Assembly (NCBI RefSeq): GCF_023156285.1
Contig: NZ_JAKZAJ010000002.1
Coordinates: 310,001-374,000, forward strand
Length of the DNA: 64,000 nt
DNA from: Marinobacter koreensis
GTDB lineage: Bacteria; Pseudomonadota; Gammaproteobacteria; Pseudomonadales; Oleiphilaceae
Direction of reading: 5' to 3'
Part shown: piece by piece, positions 2,141 to 14,698 of the stretch
Layout: each line of letters begins with the position of its first letter
Position numbering within the stretch: position 1 is the first letter of the stretch
Made by a program: the position numbers and the translations under genes
The notes under the pieces: model-generated
Seen by the model: the letters and a program-made list of their open reading frames with translations, nothing else
The model's database searches: none
Told to the model about the DNA's origin: nothing

Positions 2141-2971
2141 CTACCGGACCCCATTCTTCGCCAGCAGGCGCCGGTATTCGTCCAAAATGGCTTCATCCTC
2201 TGCCGGGTAGTCCGGCGCCAGCCGAATCAGCTGATCCGCCAGAATGGCCGCCACAATGGCCCTGGCTTCCGGCTTACGATCGCCCGGAATGATGAACCAG
2301 GGCGCCTCCTCGATGTGAGTGGCTGCCAGCGCCTCTTCGGCAAAACCTTCATAATCTGCCCGTTTTGCCCAGCCATCAATATCGGATTTATCGAATTTCC
2401 AACGCTTGCGAGGCTTGTCCAGCCGTTTGAGGAGCCGGTGACGGTGCTCATCCCCGGACAGGTTCAGCCAGATTTTCAGAATCGTCGTGCCTTCCCGGAC
2501 CAGATGCCGTTCGAAGTGACGAATGGATCGATAGCGACCGGGCCAGTCGTACTGCTCCGGGTTCAGGACCGGCCAGACCCGTTCTCCGATGACGGCCTCG
2601 TGATGACTGCGATTGAAGGCGACCATTTCGCCGAAGGCCGGCAGATAGGGCGTCACACGCCACAGGAAATCATGGCGGGCTTCCAGGCCCAGCGGTCGAC
2701 TGAAGGACCACGCATGGAACCCGGCAGGGTCGGCGTAGGTCGAGAGCGTGCGAATCAGACTGTCCTTGCCGCTGGTATCCGGGCCGTGAACCACCACCAG
2801 TAATCCCTTCCGCCGGTTGGCCCAGAGTCGACGCTGGTATTCACCGATGGTCTCCAGACTGTCCTGCAGATCCGGCAATTCCGAATCCTCGGGCGCCAGG
2901 GTCGGATAGTCCCGGAATCGCGGGCGCTCCGGGGCGTAACACCAGTGTTCGGCAAACGCCGTCATCTCCAT
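2141..2971 (-). CDS. PPK2-family polyphosphate:nucleotide phosphotransferase
   Basis: A 276-residue P-loop kinase. The Walker A-like motif HGPDTSGKDS lies at residues 62-71, and FNRSHHEAVIGERV at 119-132 matches the PPK2 lid motif. PWFIIPGDRKPEAR near the C-terminus is also family-typical. PPK2 enzymes transfer phosphate between inorganic polyphosphate and nucleotides. Whether this one uses AMP, ADP or GDP cannot be read here. The Walker A is atypical (TSGKDS where most have AAGKGG). The start at 2971 has AGGA about nine bases upstream. It is the first gene of the PPK2-dadA-methyltransferase operon, but no pathway logic linking the three is obvious. Confidence 0.85.
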   Translation of the reverse strand: MEMTAFAEHWCYAPERPRFRDYPTLAPEDSELPDLQDSLETIGEYQRRLWANRRKGLLVVVHGPDTSGKDSLIRTLSTYADPAGFHAWSFSRPLGLEARHDFLWRVTPYLPAFGEMVAFNRSHHEAVIGERVWPVLNPEQYDWPGRYRSIRHFERHLVREGTTILKIWLNLSGDEHRHRLLKRLDKPRKRWKFDKSDIDGWAKRADYEGFAEEALAATHIEEAPWFIIPGDRKPEARAIVAAILADQLIRLAPDYPAEDEAILDEYRRLLAKNGVR

Positions 2972-3017
2972 AAGTGGTTTTCCTATCGCCTTGATGTAGG
3001 TCAACAATCACACAACC

Positions 3018-3089: not shown

Positions 3090-3899
3090 ATGAGCAAGAA
3101 GCGTCGCGAGATTCCCGTTTTCGATCATCCCATCATCGAAACCCACTGCCACCTGGACTACCTCAAGGATCGCCCCCTCGAGGAAACCCTGGAAGAGAGC
3201 CAGCGGGTCAACATTGAGCGGGTCATCACGATTGCGGTGGCCCCGGACAACCTGGCAAAGGTCCGCGAACTCAGTAACGTGGCGCCCTGGGTCTACGGTA
3301 CCCAGGGCATTCATCCCCACGAAGCGGAAACCTACACGGACGCGGTAGAAGAAGAGATTCGCCGGCACGCGGGCGACGAGAAGATCGTGGCCGTGGGCGA
3401 AATCGGTCTGGACTATTTCTACGACAACGCCGACCGTGAGGTACAACGCAACGTCTTCCGTCGCCAGCTGCAACTGGCCTGTGACGCCGACCGGCCGGTG
3501 GTCATTCACAGCCGCGAAGCCGACGAGGACACCATCGCTATCCTGAAGGAATTCGAGAACAGCCTTACACGACGCGGTGTCATCCACAGCTTCACATCCG
3601 GTCCAGGGCTGGCCAAGTACGCCCTGGACCAGGGCTGGTGTCTGGGCTTCAATGGCATTACCACCTTCAATAAGGCCGAGAACGTCCGGGACATCGTGCG
3701 CATGTCGCCCATTGAGCAGATTCTGTTGGAGACCGACGCGCCGTTCCTTACTCCGGTGCCCTACCGTGGGCGTGAGAACGCGCCTTTCTACCTGCCGTTT
3801 GTGGCCGAGAATATCGCGAAGGTCAAAGACCTGCCCCTGGAGCAGGTGCTCAGCCAGACCTACCTGAACAGCCTACGGACGTTTTTTTCCGAACAATGA
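3090..3899 (+). CDS. TatD family metal-dependent hydrolase
   Basis: A 269-residue TIM-barrel hydrolase of the TatD/YcfH group, whose members act as metal-dependent deoxyribonucleases. Metal ligands are visible: HCH at 19-21, Glu104 in GEIGLDYF, His140 in VVIHSRE, His166 in VIHSF and Asp216 in ETDAPFLTP. I used the ATG at 3090. A TTG eight codons upstream (3066) is in frame but has no clear ribosome site. Its TGA overlaps the start of the next gene (ATGA), so it is coupled to the HD-GYP protein. The pairing of a nuclease-like enzyme with a c-di-GMP phosphodiesterase is noted without explanation. Confidence 0.9.
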   Translation: MSKKRREIPVFDHPIIETHCHLDYLKDRPLEETLEESQRVNIERVITIAVAPDNLAKVRELSNVAPWVYGTQGIHPHEAETYTDAVEEEIRRHAGDEKIVAVGEIGLDYFYDNADREVQRNVFRRQLQLACDADRPVVIHSREADEDTIAILKEFENSLTRRGVIHSFTSGPGLAKYALDQGWCLGFNGITTFNKAENVRDIVRMSPIEQILLETDAPFLTPVPYRGRENAPFYLPFVAENIAKVKDLPLEQVLSQTYLNSLRTFFSEQ

Positions 3900-5104
3900 T
3901 CAAACGCATACCGGTTTCGGCCCTCAAGGTCGGGATGTACATCACCGACCTGAACAACGACTGGATTCCTCACAACACCCAGCGCAAGCGGGGTTTTATC
4001 AAGCGTGAGGAAACCATCGAGAAAATCCGCCAGATGGGGGTGAAATACATCTACATCGACACCGGGCGGGGTCTCGATACCCAGGATGCCGAAACCGCCG
4101 GCGAAGTCGATCGCAGGAACGAAGCTGCGCTACAGAAAGCGGGCGAAACGTCGCCCGGTCTCAGAGCGGCGACGCCGATGGAGGAAGAGATCGTTATTGC
4201 CCAGCAGATCCACTCCCAGGCACAGGGTCTGGTGGGCAGCTTCCTGAACAACGTGAAGATGGGCACCGCCGTGGATGTGGCTCCGATCCACCAGCTGGCG
4301 GACGAATTGCAGAACTCGGTGTTCCGGAATGCGAATGCGCTGAGTTGCCTGGGCCGGATACGGGAGAAAGACAACTACCTGTTGGAGCACTCCGTCAACC
4401 TCAGCGTGCTCATGTCGCTGTTCGGAAATTTCCGGAAACTGTCATCCGACGTGCTGCACCAGACGATTGTCGGCGCCCTGCTCCACGACCTGGGCAAGAT
4501 CCTGACCCCCGACGAGATCCTGCACAAACCCGGTCGACTGACGGCAGAAGAATTCGAGGTCATGAAGCTCCACGCCCGTCATTCCCGGGACATCCTCTCA
4601 AGCACGGAAGGTATCGGCGAGATTAGTGTCATTACCGCCGCCCAGCACCACGAGAAGCTGGACGGCAGCGGCTATCCCGAAGGCCTGAAAGGCGACGAGA
4701 TATCCGAATACGGCCGCATGGTCGCCATTACGGACGTATACGATGCTATTACGGCCGATCGCGTCTACCACAAGGGGATGACCCCCACCCAGGGCCTGAA
4801 AAAGCTGCTGGAATGGAGCGGCGACCACCTCGATCCGGTACTGGTCAAGCAGTTCATCCGGTGCCTGGGGCTGTACCCCGTGGGCTCACTGGTTCTGCTT
4901 GAGAGCGGAAGGCTGGGTGTGGTCGTGGAAACCAACGATCACGATCAACGTCTGCCAGTAGTCCGCCTGATGTACCACACCCGTTTTCGCATGCCGATCC
5001 CGGTTGAAACCCTGGACCTATCGAAGCCCAACGTCCAGGACCATATCATTCGCGCCGTCGACCCGGACGATTATCACATCGACATCCGTAAATTCCTGAT
5101 TTGA
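3896..5104 (+). CDS. HD-GYP domain c-di-GMP phosphodiesterase (DUF3391 N-terminus)
   Basis: A 402-residue cytoplasmic protein. Residues 1-130 match the DUF3391 domain that often precedes HD-GYP (start IKRIPVSALKVGMYI). The HD pair is at 197-198 (LLHDLGKI), and the full signature HHEKLDGSGYPEGL is at 251-264. The GYP motif is intact, so hydrolysis of cyclic di-GMP is expected. The start overlaps the tatD stop by four bases. No transmembrane segment or receiver is seen, so the input signal is unknown. The gene probably acts against the diguanylate cyclases encoded at 6.7-9.0 kb and 13-14.7 kb. That link is inference from shared chemistry only. Confidence 0.92.
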   Translation: MIKRIPVSALKVGMYITDLNNDWIPHNTQRKRGFIKREETIEKIRQMGVKYIYIDTGRGLDTQDAETAGEVDRRNEAALQKAGETSPGLRAATPMEEEIVIAQQIHSQAQGLVGSFLNNVKMGTAVDVAPIHQLADELQNSVFRNANALSCLGRIREKDNYLLEHSVNLSVLMSLFGNFRKLSSDVLHQTIVGALLHDLGKILTPDEILHKPGRLTAEEFEVMKLHARHSRDILSSTEGIGEISVITAAQHHEKLDGSGYPEGLKGDEISEYGRMVAITDVYDAITADRVYHKGMTPTQGLKKLLEWSGDHLDPVLVKQFIRCLGLYPVGSLVLLESGRLGVVVETNDHDQRLPVVRLMYHTRFRMPIPVETLDLSKPNVQDHIIRAVDPDDYHIDIRKFLI

Positions 5105-5170: not shown

Positions 5171-6787
5171 ATGATGGCATCCCTTTTCCAGATTCTCGGT
5201 GGCCTGGCCCTGTTTCTCCTGGCCATGGAAATGATGACGGACGGTCTGAAAAGTGCCGCCGGACATCATCTGCGTCATATGCTGGGAAGCTGGACCCGTA
5301 CGCCACTGCGTGGCCTGGCTGCGGGTTGCCTGATTACCGGCCTGGTGCAATCCTCGGGCGCCGTGACCGTGGCCACCCTGGGATTCGTCAATGCCGGCCT
5401 GCTGGGGCTCGGCCAGTCCCTGGGCGTGATCTTTGGGGCCAACATCGGTACCACCGTCACCGCCTGGCTGGTCAGCCTGATCGGCTTTGGCTTCAACATC
5501 GAAGCCATTGCGCTTCCGCTGTTGACCTGCGGGGTGGCCCTGAAACTGATCAGCAATCGTTCGCGGGTCCAGTCACTCGGACAGGCCCTGGCCGGCTTCG
5601 CCCTGTTTTTCCTGGGCTTGTCCATTCTGAAAAGCTCCCTGGAAGGTTTCACCGCAGGTTTCGACAACCAGCACCTGCTGGCCAATGCCTACGGACTGCC
5701 GGCCTGGCTTCTGACCGGCTTTCTGGCGACCGTGCTGACGCAATCCTCCAGTGCCGCGCTGGCCATTGTCCTGACCGCCGCGGCCGGCGGCCTGATCCCG
5801 CTCAACAGCGCGGCAGCAGCGGTAATCGGGGCCAACCTGGGATCCACCTCCACGGCGGCGCTTGCCGCCATCAAGGCAACGGCCAACGCCCGACGACTGG
5901 CCATCGGCCATATCCTGTTCAACGCCATGACGGGAGTCGTCGCCCTGCTCATTCTTCCAATCATGCTCTGGGTGGTCGAACGGCTGGCAGACTGGCTTGA
6001 TATGACGGCCAATGTGGCCGTCTCCCTGGCGCTGTTTCATACCCTGTTCAATGTCATCGGGGCCCTGATCATGATGCCCCTGACACCTCGCTTTGCCTAC
6101 CTGCTCAGCCGCCTGTTCCGGAGCCAGGAAGAAGACAACGCCGAACCTCGGCACCTCGACAGCACTCTGGTCACCACGCCGGAGGTCGCCGTGTCTGCCG
6201 TGGATCAGGAGATGAAACGACTGGTAGGCCTGACACGGGGGCTGCTGCGCGTGTGCCTCGACCGGGAAGACCTGACAGGCGCCCAGATCCAGCCCAAAGT
6301 GGAGGCCTGTCGCAGCCTCAATGCGGCCATCAACGAATACATATCGAGACTCCGGGCGGAAAAGATGCAGCCGGCCACCGTAGATGCCCTTACTGATACC
6401 ATACGGGCCTGCCGATATCTGCTTGAGGCCACGGATCTGGCGGTTCAGTTGCTTCAGTTCCGGGATGCCCGGGACGATGTCCGGCTGGCGCCACTGGCCA
6501 CCCGGATTGATCAGTACCTGGTGACCCTGAGGTCATTGGTGGCCGCAGAAGGCCCAGCGCCGGAGACCTTCGAGCAGTCGGAAGTGCTCTACCACCAACT
6601 GAAATCCGGCCTGCTTGCGATGATTGTCCGAACCGAAGTACCGACATCGACCGGAGAAAGACTGCTCGATACGCTGAGCGGGATACGGCGCCTGGCCGAC
6701 CAGTGGGCAAAATCGCTGGCCTGGCAGCCGGCAACGTCACGACTGAATCACTCCGGGCCGGACTCCCCCACCCTGAACGCGCAATAA
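5171..6787 (+). CDS. Na+/phosphate cotransporter family protein with PhoU-like tail
   Basis: A 538-residue inner-membrane protein of the NptA/PNaS (Na/Pi cotransport) family. Two inverted QSS repeats mark the family: QSSGAVTVATLGF at 60-72 and QSSSAALAIVLTAA at 191-204. There are roughly eight hydrophobic segments up to residue 310. Residues 350-530 form a soluble helical region resembling PhoU. It should import phosphate with sodium. The 3' end overlaps the convergent cyclase gene by 40 bp, so the two transcripts are complementary at their tails. The start may be either of two adjacent ATGs. Confidence 0.88.
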   Translation: MMASLFQILGGLALFLLAMEMMTDGLKSAAGHHLRHMLGSWTRTPLRGLAAGCLITGLVQSSGAVTVATLGFVNAGLLGLGQSLGVIFGANIGTTVTAWLVSLIGFGFNIEAIALPLLTCGVALKLISNRSRVQSLGQALAGFALFFLGLSILKSSLEGFTAGFDNQHLLANAYGLPAWLLTGFLATVLTQSSSAALAIVLTAAAGGLIPLNSAAAAVIGANLGSTSTAALAAIKATANARRLAIGHILFNAMTGVVALLILPIMLWVVERLADWLDMTANVAVSLALFHTLFNVIGALIMMPLTPRFAYLLSRLFRSQEEDNAEPRHLDSTLVTTPEVAVSAVDQEMKRLVGLTRGLLRVCLDREDLTGAQIQPKVEACRSLNAAINEYISRLRAEKMQPATVDALTDTIRACRYLLEATDLAVQLLQFRDARDDVRLAPLATRIDQYLVTLRSLVAAEGPAPETFEQSEVLYHQLKSGLLAMIVRTEVPTSTGERLLDTLSGIRRLADQWAKSLAWQPATSRLNHSGPDSPTLNAQ

Positions 6788-9036
6788 CGATTGCGCCCGG
6801 TCTGTTTGGCCCGGTACATGGCCTGATCTGCCTGCCTCAGGAGCTGGTCACCATCCAGCTCTTCGGGTTGCGGGTAATAGGTGTAGCCCATGCTGGCCGA
6901 AACCCGGACCGAGTGGCTGGCAACCCAGGTCGGCTTGGCGATGGCCTGGAGCAGGCGATCCAGCAGGGCCTCAAGCGCCGCAGTATCGCCGACATTGACC
7001 ACCAGAGCGGCGAATTCGTCGCCACCCAGCCGTGCCAGGGTATCTTCTTCCCGAAGCTCCGCCCGCATGCGGGTGGCGACATCCACCAGCAACTCATCGC
7101 CGGCCTGGTGACCAAAGGCGTCATTCACCGGTTTGAACTCATCCAGATCGATATAGACAACGGCCAACCGATAGTCCTGGCGACGCGCCTGGGCCATCGC
7201 CTGCTGAAGCCGCTCGGCGAACAGGACCCGGTTAGGCAACTGTGTCAGCACATCGTAGTGCGCCATGGTCCGAAGTTTCTCTTCCTGGGCTTTGAGCTTG
7301 CTGATATCGGAAAACAATCCGACAAAATGGGTCACGGAACCATTGTCGTCCCGCACCGGGCTGATGGTCAGGGCCGCCATGTAACGCTGGCCGCCCTGTC
7401 GCTTGCTGGCGAATTCTCCACGCCAGAACCCCTGCTGGAGGCAGCTTGAGAAGACCGCAGTGCCCTCGTCCAGCGGCAACGGAGGCAAACGCCCGATGGC
7501 CCGGCTGCGCACCCAGCCGGTAATTTCGGTATAGGCATCGTTAACGTCGATCACCATACCGCGGCTATCGGTGATGAATATCGCTTCTCGTGCATGCTCG
7601 AAGACACTGGCGGCGAGGCGCTGCCGTTGCTCGGACTCTTTCCGGTCGGTGATGTCATACCACGAGCACAGGATGAATGGCTCGCCCTCACCGGGTTCGT
7701 GAATCGGCGCCAACGTCATATCCACCCAGACCTGAGAACCATCGGATCGCCGGAACAGCCATTCCAGTTGTTCCACGGCTCCGTCCCTGACGTGATCCAG
7801 CAACGTGGCCAGTTTCGCGCTGGACAGACTGCCATCGGGCTGCAACCGGGGTGAGAAAGCAGCGATGTCCTTCCCGATCAATGACAGTGGCGAACTGAAC
7901 TGGAGCAGATCGACCGCAGCGCGGTTGCTGTCCATGAACACGGAATCACTGAGCGTGAGCATGGGCTGCGGCCAACTCAGGATCAGACGTCGCAGCCGTT
8001 TCTGCTCCTTTCCCAGCTGACGCTTTTTCCGTCCCAGCCAGAGTGCCGTCATCACAAGCATCAACAGCAGAACCGATACGGTAATTATCCAGATGCGGTA
8101 TTGCTCAAACACTTCCGTCCAGGCAACCCGCGGCACCTGATCGTAGGGCGCAACCCGCAAGCTCCGGGCCAGGGCTTCCACCGAATGGTAATCCGCCGGG
8201 GGCGAAAAGCCGGCGATGCCTGCTGCCAGGGCTGCCGGATAGGTATCCTCAATGGAAAACAGCGCCGAGGCGAACCGCCGAACGATCTCGTCATCCACGT
8301 GGGGCAATGCGGCCATGGGCCACTCCGGGTAAAGACGGGTTGAGACGACGAAGGGAAAACCTCTCAGATCCTGCCGGTTCACGACATGTATGCGGTCAGC
8401 CAAGGTGGGGTCCTCGGCCTCCAACTGCTCAAGAATCCCGGACCTGACAAATCCTACATCCGCATCCCCGGCCAACACCGCGCGAACCACCCGGTCGTGG
8501 GTCCCTACCAGTTTGAAACGGTTCTCCCGACGGGCATCCACGCCGGCATTTTCCAGTTCAAAAAGAGGCGCCAGGAAACCGCCCAGATAGTCCATACCCG
8601 GTGTGGCAACGGTCTTGCCCGCGACATCTGCGAGGGTCTGGATATCATTGCGGCCCGCCTCTGTGAATATCACCCCTCCGAGACTCGAGGTTGCCGTCTC
8701 GCCCTCTTTGCGAACGAGGGTGGCCAGAACACCCGTCAGGCTGCGCTCACTGCGGATAACCAGAAAATGACTGGGATTGGTCATGAAAAAATCAAGCTGG
8801 TTGGCCGCCAGGGCGCTGTTCATTTCCTCCTGAGTCAGCACTTCCAGTTGGATGGGTATACCAATCCGGCCAGACAGGTAGTCCGCCAGCGGCTGGTATC
8901 GGTTGACAACGATCGAATCCGGACGGTAGGCGAGGATCCCCAGCTTCAGGGAACTGACCGTCTTTGCCAGCGCCAGGCATGGCGGGGCCAGAGACGCCAG
9001 AGTGACAATCAGGAACACCATGATCGCGCGTTTCAT
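6748..9036 (-). CDS. PhnD-like sensor diguanylate cyclase (PhnD-TM-PAS-PAS-GGDEF)
   Basis: A 762-residue membrane sensor. A signal peptide (residues 1-24) precedes a periplasmic PhnD/phosphonate-binding-like domain (30-300, for example SLKLGILAYRPDSIV and FFMTNPSHFLVI). A transmembrane helix lies at about 313-333, then two PAS domains (about 345-460 and 470-590), then a GGDEF domain. The active site GGDEF is at 671-675, and the inhibitory I-site RxxD (REED) lies five residues before it, so product inhibition is likely. It should make c-di-GMP in response to a periplasmic ligand. There is no EAL domain. The start overlaps the stop of the upstream lipoprotein gene (ATGA), suggesting the two proteins work together. 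Confidence 0.9.
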   Translation of the reverse strand: MKRAIMVFLIVTLASLAPPCLALAKTVSSLKLGILAYRPDSIVVNRYQPLADYLSGRIGIPIQLEVLTQEEMNSALAANQLDFFMTNPSHFLVIRSERSLTGVLATLVRKEGETATSSLGGVIFTEAGRNDIQTLADVAGKTVATPGMDYLGGFLAPLFELENAGVDARRENRFKLVGTHDRVVRAVLAGDADVGFVRSGILEQLEAEDPTLADRIHVVNRQDLRGFPFVVSTRLYPEWPMAALPHVDDEIVRRFASALFSIEDTYPAALAAGIAGFSPPADYHSVEALARSLRVAPYDQVPRVAWTEVFEQYRIWIITVSVLLLMLVMTALWLGRKKRQLGKEQKRLRRLILSWPQPMLTLSDSVFMDSNRAAVDLLQFSSPLSLIGKDIAAFSPRLQPDGSLSSAKLATLLDHVRDGAVEQLEWLFRRSDGSQVWVDMTLAPIHEPGEGEPFILCSWYDITDRKESEQRQRLAASVFEHAREAIFITDSRGMVIDVNDAYTEITGWVRSRAIGRLPPLPLDEGTAVFSSCLQQGFWRGEFASKRQGGQRYMAALTISPVRDDNGSVTHFVGLFSDISKLKAQEEKLRTMAHYDVLTQLPNRVLFAERLQQAMAQARRQDYRLAVVYIDLDEFKPVNDAFGHQAGDELLVDVATRMRAELREEDTLARLGGDEFAALVVNVGDTAALEALLDRLLQAIAKPTWVASHSVRVSASMGYTYYPQPEELDGDQLLRQADQAMYRAKQTGRNRYCAFRVGESGPE

Positions 9037-9992
9037 GAGGCGTCTCCGGGCAGGAAGGCGTCATTGCTGAGCACAGGCGTCGTCAGTGCCCGCGACATCA
9101 ATCCCTCGCCCAGAAGCAGGCGGGACAGGTGCCGGGCAACCGTATCGATACGACCATTGGTCTCGAGATACCGACGATTGGCGGCCAGATCGGGCAGCAT
9201 GACCGTCGCCAACGCCGAACGGACATCGTCTGGTGAAACACCCTGACGGGCAGCTACCCGGTAGACCGAGTCATACATGTTGCGAACAAGGTAACGCAAC
9301 CCGGAAAAGTGCGCCTCCAGAAGATCCGGCACCACCTGGGGGTTCGACCTGACCTCTTCACGGGTCACAACCAGCACGTCGAAAATGGTATCCGGCACCA
9401 TACTGCTGTCAAACAGCCGCTCTCCGCCGGCGTCTTCCAGAAGCGAGGCGACAGGTTCATAACACACCGACGCGTCCACCTCATTCCGTTTCCAGGCATC
9501 AAGGTGTTCATCCACCGGCAGGTCCACAATGACCACCTGTTCCGGGGCAATATCCGCTCTGTCGAGAATGGTCAGTAGCAGGGTGCCGGAAACACCGCCA
9601 AGTTCCGTGGCGATACGCTTGCCCCGCAGTTGATCAATCGATCGGATACCCGGCCTGACGATGAGCACATCCGCTCCGGCCGACACATCGGCAACGCCCA
9701 CCACATACAGCTCCGGCCCTTCGACATGCACCCGGATCGCCTCATCCAGCGTCAGGGCCGCACCGGCCAACGTGCCGGACTGGAGGCCGTCGATCGAATC
9801 CGCCGACGACTGGCCTTTTATCAACTTAACGTCATCGCTGAGCCAGCCAAACTCCTCAGCCAGGTACAAGGGCTCGTAGCCAATCCAGGGATGAACGCCA
9901 AAACGGAGGGGTTTTCGGCGCGAACAGCCACCAAGACCGGAGACTGCCAGACCCGCGGCAAGGGAGAGACCAATGAATTCGCGGCGGTGCAT
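9033..9992 (-). CDS. Tat-type lipoprotein, NitT/TauT-like solute-binding protein
   Basis: A 319-residue periplasmic binding protein. The N-terminus MHRREFIGLSLAAG carries a twin-arginine-like motif, then a lipobox LGGC, so it is probably a Tat-exported lipoprotein. FGVHPWIGYEPLYLAEEFGW is typical of NMT1/SsuA-like (NitT/TauT) binding proteins. No ABC permease or ATPase gene is nearby. Instead it is coupled by a four-base overlap to the PhnD-GGDEF gene. I infer a sensing, not transport, role. A GTG 17 codons upstream (10043) is an alternative start, but the signal peptide argues for 9992. Confidence 0.82.
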   Translation of the reverse strand: MHRREFIGLSLAAGLAVSGLGGCSRRKPLRFGVHPWIGYEPLYLAEEFGWLSDDVKLIKGQSSADSIDGLQSGTLAGAALTLDEAIRVHVEGPELYVVGVADVSAGADVLIVRPGIRSIDQLRGKRIATELGGVSGTLLLTILDRADIAPEQVVIVDLPVDEHLDAWKRNEVDASVCYEPVASLLEDAGGERLFDSSMVPDTIFDVLVVTREEVRSNPQVVPDLLEAHFSGLRYLVRNMYDSVYRVAARQGVSPDDVRSALATVMLPDLAANRRYLETNGRIDTVARHLSRLLLGEGLMSRALTTPVLSNDAFLPGDAS

Positions 9993-10105
9993 GCGGGCGT
10001 CAGGTCCTTGTACTTCGGGAAGGCCGGTGGTTACCTTTTGCACGATAGTCTATCGCGTCCTATAGAGGCCACCAAATTTATCCCGAATTTGCATCAGATC
10101 AACTA

Positions 10106-11014
10106 TCAGCCCAGGGCCAGGAAAACCCCCATCAGAACGGGCGAAAGAAAGGACAGCAGAAAACCCGAGGCAATCGCGACCGGGACACAGGCCAGGCCGC
10201 CACTGTTCTTGATGACCGGCAAAGTGAAATCCATGGCCGTGGCACCGCCATAGCCGATCGCCATTGCAGGCCGGGACCGGATGATGACCGGGATCAGTGC
10301 CAGGGCAATGATTTCCCGAAGCACGTCGTTCAGGAAAGCCACGCCACCCCAGGCCGGCCCCAGGGCATCTCCCACCACGATGCCAGACAGGGAATACCAG
10401 CCAAACCCGGATACCAGGGCCAGCACATCGTGCCAGGGCAAGTCCAGAACCGGCATCAGCAACAGCCCTGCAACCAGGGAACTGGCGGTAACCGCCAGGG
10501 CCATACCCAAACCGAAGCGATTGACCAGCAAACGACGCAGGGAGAGCCCTGCATTACGAAGCTGCAAGCCAATCAGGAAAAGCAACAGCATCAAGGCACC
10601 GGTGGCCACCTGATCGACCATGGGCAGGGCAGGCAGCAGGAAAAATCCGGCCAGAAGCCCGGCAACAACCGCCATCAAGGGTTTGAGCCCGGCGAGAAAC
10701 AGGCGCCGATACCCCGCCTGACCGGCTTCTGTCGGCTCATCGATCGGCATCGGGTCCCAACGATGACACAGCCAGAGCCCCAGCATATTGGCGGCCAACA
10801 GGGTAATAACCAGCACACCAACCTGGCCAGCCATGTTCGCCAGCTGGTCAACCAGCCCTTCCATCTGACCCAGCCCCAGACCGAGCAGCGCAAGAATGAA
10901 ATAGACCAGAACCTCCACAGTGTGGTGGATAACGGTCATGACACGCCGATTGGACAGGGACAGGGCAAAGCCAAGGAACAGCGGCGCCAGGATGAGCAAA
11001 GCTCCGGTCAACAT
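10106..11014 (-). CDS. lysO: LysO family L-lysine exporter
   Basis: A 302-residue polytopic inner-membrane protein with about eight hydrophobic helices, matching the length of E. coli LysO (YbjE, DUF340), which exports lysine. Family-like blocks are GLQLRNAGLSLR, SGFGWYSLSGI and NDVLREIIALALIPVI. It starts 12 bp after the DUF2288 gene, so the two are probably cotranscribed. No lysine riboswitch is visible upstream; the 12-bp gap is too short for one. Assignment is by sequence resemblance and substrate is inferred from the family. Confidence 0.82.
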   Translation of the reverse strand: MLTGALLILAPLFLGFALSLSNRRVMTVIHHTVEVLVYFILALLGLGLGQMEGLVDQLANMAGQVGVLVITLLAANMLGLWLCHRWDPMPIDEPTEAGQAGYRRLFLAGLKPLMAVVAGLLAGFFLLPALPMVDQVATGALMLLLFLIGLQLRNAGLSLRRLLVNRFGLGMALAVTASSLVAGLLLMPVLDLPWHDVLALVSGFGWYSLSGIVVGDALGPAWGGVAFLNDVLREIIALALIPVIIRSRPAMAIGYGGATAMDFTLPVIKNSGGLACVPVAIASGFLLSFLSPVLMGVFLALG

Positions 11015-11821: not shown

Positions 11822-12959
11822 TGTCCGGAACCTCCTGCTGGCTGCCACCCAGGCCGAGCCGTCTCATCAGCCTCCGGCATTCGTCAGTCTCGGTTTTACC
11901 ATCGGCCAGCAAAGCGGCAGTCCTCATCAGAAGACAATCCTCCTGGGTCGAACCCTTCGGCAGGAAGTGAACGGCCCCGATCATTTCACGCAGCTCCAAC
12001 GCGAGGCGCCACTGGACTTTCAACTCATTGCCAAACGTTTGCGCCCACTTCCGGAGGCATTCCTCGGCCTCGGCTTCATCAAGGCTCCCACCCTGTAAAA
12101 CGTATTCGTTCAACACCCTCAATACGGCCAGCTCGCCAACACGACTGAGCAATGCCGCCTTCTGAAACGCAAAGGGCGACTTTTTGAGACTCAGAGCCAG
12201 GCGCTGGGCCTCCTTCGAGATCGACAGCGTCATGTCCCGGTAGCGATCGGCGAGCATTTTCAAAACCGGACTTTGCATGGCGCCGGACACATCCAGCGAC
12301 AGCGCCAGCACGTAGTTGAGCGCCATCGGTATACCGAGAAAGCTGATGGCATCCCTGAGGGTCTGGATGGGCTCTCCAGAACGCCTGAGCGATGCCCCAT
12401 TGGACACATCAAGGAGGCGCGCCAGAATACCCGTCTGATCCCGCCAACGTTCGGCGAGCTGAGCCGACGAGAGCTGATCCCGGCGCGTTATCAAATCCAG
12501 GACTTCGGTGACGTCCATAGCCCCGGGCAGCTGAACAATATGGCCCTGGTAGCTGGCCAACATCTCGGCCGGCGTACGCGAAGACACACCATCATCCCTG
12601 ACTTTCAACAGCGCACTCAGGCGTTTATGGAGCACATCAACGTTGAACGGTTTGGTGATGTAGGCGCTTATTCCGTAGTGGGCCGCCTGCAACACGGAAT
12701 CCCGGTCTGAACGCCCGGACACCATGACGATCGGCAAATCCCGGTCCTTCGACCGAATGGTTTTCACCAGCTGAAGCCCGGAACCATCCGGGAGATTCCA
12801 GTCTGCCACCACCAGGTCAAAAGACGATTCCTGCAGGGCCGATCTGGCCCCACGCACATCCGGGGCCAGCGTTACCTGCATCCCGGGATGCAGCCCGACC
12901 AGCACCGTTTCGAGGAGCTCACCTACCAGCTCATCGTCTTCAATAATCAGGGATTTCAA
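11805..12959 (-). CDS. Response regulator with HDOD domain
   Basis: A 384-residue protein. The receiver covers residues 1-120 (LIIEDDE, Asp53 in VADWNLPDGSG, MVSGRS, TKPF). Residues about 145-340 look like an HDOD domain, the catalytically dead HD relative: LARLLDVSNGASLRRSGEP then TLRDAISFLGIPMALNYVL. The C-terminal 40 residues are unassigned. The start is TTG, overlapping the TGA of the upstream GGDEF gene (TTGA), with a strong AGGAGG five bases before it. HDOD proteins commonly relay signals to c-di-GMP or motility pathways. The exact output is unknown. Confidence 0.85.
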   Translation of the reverse strand: MKSLIIEDDELVGELLETVLVGLHPGMQVTLAPDVRGARSALQESSFDLVVADWNLPDGSGLQLVKTIRSKDRDLPIVMVSGRSDRDSVLQAAHYGISAYITKPFNVDVLHKRLSALLKVRDDGVSSRTPAEMLASYQGHIVQLPGAMDVTEVLDLITRRDQLSSAQLAERWRDQTGILARLLDVSNGASLRRSGEPIQTLRDAISFLGIPMALNYVLALSLDVSGAMQSPVLKMLADRYRDMTLSISKEAQRLALSLKKSPFAFQKAALLSRVGELAVLRVLNEYVLQGGSLDEAEAEECLRKWAQTFGNELKVQWRLALELREMIGAVHFLPKGSTQEDCLLMRTAALLADGKTETDECRRLMRRLGLGGSQQEVPDNASTN

Positions 12960-14698
12960 TGGGCCTCCTGCGGAGCGTTCTGGGGCCCCGACCGAAAAAC
13001 CGTAACGCCGTTTCTGCCATTGTACTTACGCCGATACAGTGCTGTGTCTGCGGCGTTGAGCGACTCGTCCGCCGTGCTCAGGGCATGGATGGCAGCGATC
13101 CCGGCACTCAAGGTGACGTGGAAACGGTCCTGGCCAGCGGTAAATGCCAGTGCCGAGAAACTGGCGGCGATGTCTTGCATGACCCTCTCCGCGTCGTCGA
13201 GATCACATCCCGGCATGACGACCAGAAACTCCTCACCACCATAACGGCCAATCAGATCCGTTTCGCGCAACCGGTTGCGCAACAGATTGGCCAGCGATTT
13301 GATGACCGTATCGCCGACCATATGCCCCCAGGTATCGTTCACCGTCTTGAAATGATCCAGATCCAGCATCACGACTGCCGAGGTGTGCCCGTCACGACGG
13401 CACCGCGCCACTTCCTGCTCCAGAGTCTGCTTGATCAATGAGTGTTTCAGCAAACCGGTCAGGCTGTCCTGATTCATGAGGTCCGAAAGCAGGCGGGCTC
13501 TCAGGCAACGGATCTGCACCGAGCGCACCAGATAATCATCGGACACCGGTTTCATGAGAAAATCGTCCGCGCCCTTGGACAGGGCATCCAACTGGATGTC
13601 CGGATCGTCCTCCGAGGACAGGTATATAATCGGCAGACTCAGCCACTGCGCATCGAACCGGATCATGCGGGCCAGGTGGACCCCCGAATACCCATCCAGT
13701 TGCACGTCCATCAAGACCAGATCCGGACGGAATGCGGCCATATCCGACAACAGCCTGGTCGGATCATTGACGATCCGCACGTCAATGCCTGCCAGATGCA
13801 GCACCAGCCGGTAATGCTCTGCAAGATCCGGATCGTCTTCGACGAGAATCACCCTCCCCCGGGTACCCCGGGCCTGATCCGCAGACAGTTTTTCTATGCG
13901 CTCCACCAGCTCCGGCAGCTGTATCGGATCCGGGAAAAATCCCCGAGCGCCGTTTTCAGCCAACTCATATCGATTGTCAAAAGAATCGTGTCCACCGACT
14001 GCAAAAATCGGCAACCGGAGAATAGCCGGATCCGAACTCGAATTACGGACCGTCCGGACCTTCGGGACTTTCACCGGCGACGCCAGAAGCGCGACGACAC
14101 CCGAGTTCTCGGCGCAATCAATCGCGGTCATCATGGCATCGACGGACACTTCCAGGCTATCAAACCCGTAACTCGACAGTTCCCGACACAGCAATGAGGC
14201 CCGATCTGTATCCTCATCCACGATCAGTAACCGTGCCTGTTTACCCTCAAGCCGGGTTCGGTCGAATACATTCGCCTTATCAAGAGATGGGTCATGCGCG
14301 CTGCTCGTTTGATGGCCAGCTAGTGAGCGGAGTACCTGAAGCCCGGACGACAGTTCCTCGAAAAGCCTTGCCTTATGTCCCGAATCAAGCCTGCTTTCAT
14401 CCTCTATGCAGGCAACCGGTTTGAGGACCTTTTCCAGCGCGCGCGCCGTCCGCCCGACATCCGGCATACCAAAGGTTCCGGCCGAGCCGGCGAGACGATG
14501 GAGGCGATGATACGCCGAGCACAGTGCGCCACCGTCATCATCAGAAACCAGACGATCCGCTTCTTTCTGCAGACACTCCAGATCTTCGGAAAGCCGGACA
14601 AGGAAGCGCTCTCTCAATCTGGCCAGCTTGGCAGGCATGTCTGGTGCGTTGGTATACGGCAAACCACAATCTCCACGAGAACCGGATGTTCCCGACAC
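12956..14698 (-). CDS. Hpt-REC-REC-GGDEF diguanylate cyclase
   Basis: A 580-residue soluble signalling protein. An Hpt domain at about 20-130 carries LHRLAGSAGTFG with the phosphorylatable histidine. A first receiver (about 153-275) has VDED but AllASPV where the acceptor aspartate should be, so it looks inactive. A second receiver (about 283-400) is intact (VEDDPD, LMDVQLDGYSG, MKPVSD). The GGDEF domain ends the protein, with GGEEF at 487-491 and an I-site RETD five residues before. The start is GTG at 14698. An ATG at 14638 is the alternative. It probably receives phosphate from the kinases encoded divergently only 65 bp away. Confidence 0.9.
   Translation of the reverse strand: MSGTSGSRGDCGLPYTNAPDMPAKLARLRERFLVRLSEDLECLQKEADRLVSDDDGGALCSAYHRLHRLAGSAGTFGMPDVGRTARALEKVLKPVACIEDESRLDSGHKARLFEELSSGLQVLRSLAGHQTSSAHDPSLDKANVFDRTRLEGKQARLLIVDEDTDRASLLCRELSSYGFDSLEVSVDAMMTAIDCAENSGVVALLASPVKVPKVRTVRNSSSDPAILRLPIFAVGGHDSFDNRYELAENGARGFFPDPIQLPELVERIEKLSADQARGTRGRVILVEDDPDLAEHYRLVLHLAGIDVRIVNDPTRLLSDMAAFRPDLVLMDVQLDGYSGVHLARMIRFDAQWLSLPIIYLSSEDDPDIQLDALSKGADDFLMKPVSDDYLVRSVQIRCLRARLLSDLMNQDSLTGLLKHSLIKQTLEQEVARCRRDGHTSAVVMLDLDHFKTVNDTWGHMVGDTVIKSLANLLRNRLRETDLIGRYGGEEFLVVMPGCDLDDAERVMQDIAASFSALAFTAGQDRFHVTLSAGIAAIHALSTADESLNAADTALYRRKYNGRNGVTVFRSGPQNAPQEAH

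Follow-up and report, generated by a model that had tools for sequence, protein, structure and literature searches.

Described binding-protein sensors and the Marinobacter pair

The pairing of a free periplasmic binding protein with the Cache ectodomain of a neighboring membrane cyclase was reportedly described by Teixeira et al. in 2018 (XAC2383-XAC2382); relatives with exchanged outputs are said to exist, and the Phosphonate-bd family is said to have been met there already, as the free partner XAC2383. Presented here is a gene pair from Marinobacter koreensis, located in a 64-kb stretch of contig NZ_JAKZAJ010000002.1 (positions 310001 to 374000, or C2:310001-374000; the whole stretch is termed the window), that encodes an NMT1/SsuA-class solute-binding lipoprotein and a predicted diguanylate cyclase with a PhnD-like ectodomain. 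Based on sequence comparisons, the two probably form a bipartite periplasmic receptor (rough probability, 0.74), in which the lipoprotein and the PhnD-like ectodomain would set diguanylate cyclase activity and no transport would be involved. XAC2383 is listed as Phosphonate-bd, and its structure (5ub3) was a match of the Marinobacter PhnD domain in a structure search. However, the PF12974 protein is reportedly the free partner in XAC2383-XAC2382, whereas the Marinobacter cyclase itself contains PF12974, which leaves the NMT1/SsuA lipoprotein as the free partner; the pair thus falls outside that family proper, reportedly a free PF12974 protein plus a Cache ectodomain.

NspS of Vibrio cholerae belongs to another family than the lipoprotein. 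The NspS-MbaA system resembles the Marinobacter pair in that a binding-protein gene lies directly upstream of a gene for a membrane enzyme of cyclic di-GMP (c-di-GMP) metabolism, and NspS docks on the MbaA ectodomain and sets its activity; it differs in that NspS binds polyamines and MbaA carries GGDEF and EAL domains (as outlined in PMC8079147). In ScrB-ScrC of Vibrio parahaemolyticus, one operon encodes both a periplasmic binding protein and the GGDEF/EAL enzyme whose switch that protein controls through interaction, but the operon also contains ScrA, the signal maker (as sketched in PMC10269520). No ScrB or ScrC NCBIfam model was among the matches listed for a Stutzerimonas lipoprotein and four partners. 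TtrS and ThsS share a PhnD-like ectodomain fused to a signaling output, but their output is a histidine kinase, and the passages on them in PMC5408782 describe no lipoprotein partner. AioX-AioS and ArrX use PhnD-fold binding proteins in signaling rather than transport, as free proteins with a kinase, whereas the Marinobacter PhnD fold is the fused half and has lost the pocket serines (PMC5908839, in the portion on these proteins). CdgH of V. cholerae is likewise a cyclase with two binding-protein folds, but both lie in one chain and are of the amino acid-binding kind (as summarized in PMC5431781).

According to a passage of a 2022 review, of 27 binding-protein-clan Pfam families only SBP_bac_3 had been investigated as a domain of c-di-GMP networks (PMC8846402). 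Within the openly licensed literature, no paper combining phosphonate-binding or PhnD with diguanylate cyclase or GGDEF was found, which is no proof of absence, and by their titles none named an NMT1 solute-binding protein paired with a GGDEF enzyme or histidine kinase. Many periplasmic inputs to c-di-GMP enzymes lack a known signal, and the comparative evidence below points to NMT1 and Phosphonate-bd as a working pair. The features of the pair are as follows.

9033..9992, minus strand: NMT1/SsuA-class solute-binding lipoprotein with a twin-arginine translocation (Tat) signal, proposed sensing subunit (319 amino acids [aa], ATG at 9992)
6748..9036, minus strand: predicted membrane diguanylate cyclase with signal peptide, PhnD-like periplasmic domain, one transmembrane (TM) segment, two PAS domains, and GGDEF, proposed receptor and output (762 aa, ATG)
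8137..8958, minus strand: PhnD-like (PF12974) ectodomain, residues 27 to 300 of the cyclase (from Pfam, model, and GFxR signature)
6787..7263, minus strand: GGDEF domain, residues 592 to 750 of the cyclase, with inhibitory site (I-site) REED five residues ahead of GGDEF (from Pfam and sequence)
9033..9036, minus strand: 4-bp ATGA overlap of the two genes (from sequence)

The earlier note on this DNA had read two periplasmic binding folds from overlapping genes, one a Tat-type lipoprotein and one fused to PAS-PAS-GGDEF, and open reading frames, Pfam matches, and structure models confirmed this. The lipoprotein is an NMT1/SsuA-class solute-binding protein by profile (NMT1 PF09084, E value of 2.3e-12, 47.7 bits versus a cutoff of 20.5; NMT1_2, E value of 7.9e-12) and by fold (nearest solved folds TauA, Z 30.0, and SsuA, Z 28.9), with a mean predicted local distance difference test (pLDDT) score of 86.2 for the model and values below 50 at residues 1 to 24. 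It was not assignable to the SsuA/TauA equivalogs or subfamilies (TIGR01728, 104.3 versus 163.5; TIGR01729, 47.1 versus 304.25). Residues M1, R3, R4, F6, and C23, which include the twin-arginine motif and the lipobox cysteine, were invariant in 30 aligned rows, and these motifs suggest Tat export and lipid anchoring. An alternative in-frame GTG start (9033-10043, minus strand, 336 aa) is less likely, because a start at the ATG at 9992 puts the twin-arginine motif and C23 lipobox at suitable positions. The nearest named relative in the scan, from M. santoriniensis NKSG1, was 97% identical.

The cyclase matched Phosphonate-bd PF12974 at residues 33 to 282 (E value of 9.7e-49, 166.4 bits versus a cutoff of 27), PAS in two stretches (best, PAS_9 at 484 to 579), and GGDEF at residues 592 to 750 (E value of 5e-50); the signal peptide and single TM segment were read directly from the sequence. 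The product of 6748-9036 is predicted to be an active diguanylate cyclase, as it carries both the GGDEF motif and an RxxD I-site, which were kept in all 38 Marinobacter orthologues with a frame longer than 450 aa; at the 39th Marinobacter locus (L090), the cyclase gene is split into several frames. The PhnD-domain model had a mean pLDDT of 95.8, and its nearest solved folds were PtxB (TM-score of 0.83), also the nearest by sequence, and ArrX, followed by AioX and PhnD. A 512-aa PhnD receptor in Marinobacter MAG-100 (L114, 6957-8492), in which our own profiles found PhnD and GGDEF and no PAS, is perhaps a natural minimal version, judging from its domain content.

Co-occurrence and co-divergence of lipoprotein and ectodomain

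Orthologues of the lipoprotein (E value of 1.5e-92 or better) were found in 57 of 124 Marinobacter genomes, and orthologues of the PhnD cyclase (E value of 8.2e-89 or better) were found in the same 57. By coordinates, both genes were adjacent and co-oriented in all 57; the remaining 67 genomes had neither, and none had only one. This pattern is not one of chance, and the refuting condition of the earlier note, that the pair would fail to co-occur in relatives, did not come true. Marinobacter nauticus DSM 50418 is among the carriers of the pair (locus L099). These counts leave out weaker matches (lipoprotein, ≤29% identity; cyclase, ≤40%, including a 36% relative in G040), and they represent fewer than 57 independent cases, because species of one genus are not independent. 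Among the 57, the receptor frame was split in G088 and short in G081. The 4-bp overlap (offset −4) recurred at many relatives' loci, and translational coupling of the two genes through ATGA would be expected.

The genome contains 23 permease-domain places and 66 ATP-binding cassette (ABC) ATPase places (E value of 1e-5 or better), none of which lies inside the window. The absence of an ABC permease or ATPase near the pair was therefore borne out, and within the window the lipoprotein has no adjoining permease and ATPase of the kind that marks an ABC importer binding protein. Of four other NMT1 matches in the genome, three (C2:465841, C2:70857, and C1:205862) have a permease place within approximately 1.5 kb. 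A binding-protein gene and a membrane signaling enzyme gene that are paired, conserved, and transporter free thus present the genomic pattern of the NspS-MbaA and XAC2383-XAC2382 kind.

More distant relatives of the lipoprotein were sought with a profile of 30 Marinobacter lipoprotein rows in 369 genomes of the host's class (E value of 1e-25 or better; the alignment-based class scans scored no more than six candidates in each genome, so some copies may have escaped them). Matches were found in 59 of the 369 genomes, the host's own included, at 74 places including the pair's own. The next same-strand gene was classified at 60 of the 73 other places; 13 were left out (E value of 2.7e-31 and weaker), one of them inside L203. 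This gene encoded a transmembrane sensor at 49 of the 60 loci, an ABC permease at 6, and neither at 5 (L153, L181, L191, L197, and L203), with a fatty acid desaturase next at L191 and a long TM-type frame further downstream at L197 and L203. At L203, two NMT1-type lipoproteins were observed in tandem ahead of the distant long TM-type frame. The 49 sensors comprised 11 of the PhnD type (two degenerate), 36 with an ectodomain of approximately 170 aa between two TM segments, and 2 with a larger ectodomain. The outputs seen were GGDEF, GGDEF-EAL, and histidine kinase; in Novispirillum (L137), the output was HD-GYP. These calls were made from our own profiles, motifs, and hydropathy, by which no complete output domain was seen at L157, L165, and L172; Pfam was run on 17 of the 60 loci and three others. 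The approximately 170-aa ectodomain matched no Pfam family in 16 partners scanned or in L161 residues 1 to 186 alone. This periplasmic ectodomain between two TM segments was observed in the partners of L121 to L142 and L154 to L186.

A scan of named genomes from two short peptides returned 67 loci, including those in Hydrogenovibrio, Stutzerimonas, Pseudomonas, Novispirillum, a member of the Desulfuromonadaceae, and a Leptospiraceae metagenome-assembled genome (MAG). On a Niveispirillum plasmid, the gene was likewise paired with one for an EAL protein. As in that case, such genes may be named "ABC transporter substrate-binding protein" beside a signaling enzyme, which is a warning for annotation. 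Cysteine at the lipobox position was found in all 39 Marinobacter rows, 15 of 16 other PhnD-type rows, 45 of 47 small-ectodomain rows, and none of 6 verified transport rows (the strict lipobox pattern matched 26 of the 39 Marinobacter rows); the twin-arginine pattern was found at all 39 named Marinobacter loci but in only 8 of the 16 other PhnD-type rows and 10 of the 47 with a small ectodomain.

When 89 lipoproteins were placed in a maximum-likelihood tree, all 27 that stand with a PhnD receptor (degenerate in L149 and L151) fell on one side of a single branch (bootstrap, 100; Shimodaira-Hasegawa-like approximate likelihood ratio test, 98; 200 of 200 bootstrap trees, with the bootstrap not fully settled). 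The ectodomain label (PhnD or small, 74 rows) required 1 change on this tree (shuffled mean, 22.3; 0 of 300 shuffles as low), and with a single Marinobacter row, it still required 1 (shuffled, 15.4). The output label (70 rows) required 16 changes versus a shuffled mean of 33.0 (0 of 300 as low); outputs were therefore clustered too, though far from one origin. Inside the PhnD group (16 rows, one from Marinobacter), the output label was near random, with 6 changes versus 7.4 in shuffles (45 of 300 as low). As ectodomain and output are encoded in one gene, simple linkage would carry both and cannot alone give this contrast, so the lipoprotein is tied to the outer domain of the receptor and not to the enzyme. 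More of the break points lie within the receptor gene than at the junction of lipoprotein and ectodomain.

Across 34 Marinobacter loci, with LysO and TatD distances removed as background, lipoprotein distances gave a partial r of 0.77 with the ectodomain, 0.63 with GGDEF, 0.54 with PAS1, and 0.51 with PAS2, and the differences stayed above zero over the 5 to 95% range (bootstrap over genomes). With 165 columns, the values were 0.71 for the ectodomain and 0.63 for GGDEF. The effect within Marinobacter is modest.

For the reverse scan, the profile was built from 22 PhnD domains linked to the lipoprotein; it matched 81 of the same 369 genomes. Twelve places scored above 340 bits, with the next at 285 bits; all 12 were in lipoprotein-bearing genomes, and 10 were adjacent to the lipoprotein. 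The other two were in G372, where receptor and lipoprotein lie far apart on one contig, and in G239, where the place is a second receptor. By coordinates, no place at or below 285 bits adjoined a class-scan lipoprotein place except that in G385, at the broken locus L151. Every one of the 22 linked PhnD domains carried G-F-x-R, and the unlinked ones carried G-T-x-R (18 of 19) or G-A-x-R (1 of 19). G-F-x-R was also found in the unlinked receptors of G372 and G239 and in L251, with A-F-x-R in L232; L253 ends before the motif. In the PhnD-domain tree, rows L230, L231, and L255 duplicate others.

Collectively, the strict co-occurrence, the sensor-linked relatives, and the tracking of the PhnD ectodomain supported the proposal of the earlier note that the pair is a transporter-free, ligand-sensing module feeding c-di-GMP with the lipoprotein as the cyclase partner. 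The Tat-exported, lipid-anchored lipoprotein would be a solute-binding protein that gave up transport. Ligand binding would close its two lobes, after which it would dock on, or leave, the PhnD-like ectodomain of the cyclase, possibly presenting ligand to it; the shift would then travel along the lone TM helix, pass the two PAS domains, and reach the GGDEF dimer, changing c-di-GMP synthesis, with putative product inhibition at the I-site of the GGDEF domain. We infer physical docking, the direction of control, and any role in biofilm formation or motility.

Several observations weigh against this reading. With 115 alignment columns, the partial r values for the ectodomain and GGDEF were 0.67 and 0.59, with overlapping ranges (0.61 to 0.74 and 0.51 to 0.66), and co-divergence may partly reflect joint inheritance of neighbors. 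At L149 and L151, in two genomes related to each other, the receptor next to the lipoprotein has a shortened or interrupted PhnD domain. The orphan lipoprotein L119 of Thiomicrorhabdus marina falls in the PhnD clade; the best PhnD receptor of T. marina (187 bits) grouped with the unlinked side on a long branch, yet has G-F-x-R, and the prediction that this genome encodes a matching PhnD receptor elsewhere was not clearly borne out by the tree. L153 is also an orphan lipoprotein, its genome (G372) having a receptor elsewhere, and for the L232 PhnD domain (285 bits), which groups with the linked domains in the tree, the stretch examined contained no lipoprotein match. A weak NMT1 match in the host genome (C6:144229, E value of 1.5e-7) also lacks a permease place on its contig, and a transporter encoded elsewhere could still use the lipoprotein.

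Put more broadly, lipoproteins and ectodomains of this type may constitute unnamed, widespread input cassettes, in which a transport-free NMT1 lipoprotein co-diverges with a PhnD-like or approximately 170-aa ectodomain and is joined in one piece to cyclases, cyclase-phosphodiesterases, kinases, and HD-GYP proteins; this extension is tentative, and we rate it at somewhat short of an even chance. If true, in the PhnD branch one binding protein reads another. Within the reach of the comparisons made, the two roles are filled by other protein families than in NspS-MbaA, ScrB-ScrC, and XAC2383-XAC2382. What is new is that an NMT1 lipoprotein forms the constant half, that in the PhnD branch both partners of the proposed contact have binding-protein folds, and that a fixed input pair contrasts with an exchanged output.

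Ligand and competing explanations

The shared side of the pocket in PhnD and AioX is lined by two serines, one histidine, and two tyrosines (as described in part of PMC5908839). In the alignment, AioX S161 and S163 (the oxyanion serines) correspond to Y150 and G152 of the cyclase PhnD domain, and the pocket histidine corresponds to H180. The first-serine position was Tyr or Phe in the Marinobacter rows shown and Ser in some other linked rows, and the second-serine position was Gly or Ala in relatives; H180 was kept in 90% of the rows counted, and D181 and R198 were kept in all. With both of these serines replaced, phosphonate is an unlikely signal, and the PhnD domain may hold no ligand and act as a docking platform.

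Sensing of phosphorus starvation (phosphonate or phosphite), coupled to the sodium/phosphate (Na/Pi) cotransporter gene that adjoins the pair, would fit the PF12974 fold with PtxB as its nearest solved structure, the occurrence of that gene next to the pair at 31 of the 37 loci that could be scored, and a PPK2 gene nearby. However, Y150 and G152 stand in place of the serines, while the PhnD of a regular locus elsewhere in the same genome (L001, with ATPase- and permease-like genes that are PhnC- and PhnE-like, named by likeness, the permease frame being partial) keeps STSG. The PhnD equivalog model scored 53.5 versus a cutoff of 261.1, and LysO, seen at 34 of the 35 loci where it could be scored, was the more constant neighbor. 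Of the 57 pair genomes, 42 had a close Na/Pi orthologue (E value of 1e-110 or better) and 15 lacked one, and 15 of the 67 genomes without the pair had one as well; the gene is enriched in pair genomes and is neither needed nor exclusive. Phosphorus sensing is thus very improbable, and the suggestion in the earlier note that the convergent transporter hints at phosphorus nutrition was not borne out. Phosphonate or phosphate as the signal was rejected as the favored reading on the basis of the replaced pocket serines and the Na/Pi distribution.

The two products could also be independent sensors in one operon, with the PhnD domain sensing its own ligand and the lipoprotein being an orphan transport protein that borrows a permease elsewhere, for which the genome's 23 permease-domain places offer candidates. 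According to the account in PMC5408782, TtrS is believed to bind its signal directly through a PhnD-type ectodomain, a resemblance that led to the finding of ThsS, and the two sense tetrathionate and thiosulfate. The TtrS model (NCBIfam NF040750) aligned to cyclase residues 29 to 350 and was the best ectodomain-covering match among the best 25 of 37 NCBIfam matches, but the cyclase is not a TtrS equivalog (118.4 versus a cutoff of 750), its output being GGDEF and not a histidine kinase. The strict co-occurrence in the genus, the segregation of the lipoprotein with the ectodomain in one change, the permeases adjoining three of the four other NMT1 matches, and the lipobox-position cysteine, lacking in the six verified transport relatives and present in nearly all sensor-linked ones, make independent sensing quite unlikely. 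Under a further explanation, a special case of the bipartite receptor with which its odds overlap, both folds would bind ligands and the cyclase would integrate two chemicals. Both folds were complete in the models, H180, D181, and R198 are largely or fully conserved, and CdgH offers a precedent for tandem binding domains that differ in ligand (per the relevant part of PMC5431781); the replaced oxyanion serines, by which the PhnD domain may serve only for docking, argue against it, and such integration is possible and on the unlikely side.

For the bipartite receptor, a sulfur compound or other small anion as the ligand is only a guess; the ligand is perhaps a small anion, and the nearest solved folds of the lipoprotein bind taurine and sulfonate. 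Ligand screens would be feasible on the small soluble protein.

Neighboring genes

The genes around the pair, which follows LysO on the minus strand in the order lipoprotein, cyclase, are listed below.

2141-3007: PPK2-family polyphosphate kinase gene, approximately 4 kb beyond the pair
3896-5104: HD-domain protein with DUF3391 (Pfam; HD-GYP by likeness), flanking the pair
5171-6787, plus strand: Na/Pi cotransporter gene (domain matches), convergent with the pair
10106-11014, minus strand: LysO gene, upstream of the lipoprotein gene
12956-14698: Hpt-REC-GGDEF protein (Pfam), flanking the pair

The convergent orientation of the Na/phosphate transporter was as the earlier note had it. A promoter and terminator scan found no promoter-like site in the gap between the LysO and lipoprotein genes. 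The surrounding genes were less constant than the pair itself; the HD-GYP-like gene, for one, was kept beside it at 25 of 37 testable loci. A contig filed under a Flavobacteriaceae MAG (SAT96; L100) showed the Marinobacter neighborhood in the same gene order, and this bin is probably mixed. As the HD-GYP-like and Hpt-REC-GGDEF genes flank the pair, several c-di-GMP genes cluster at the locus; both were also present at many related loci.

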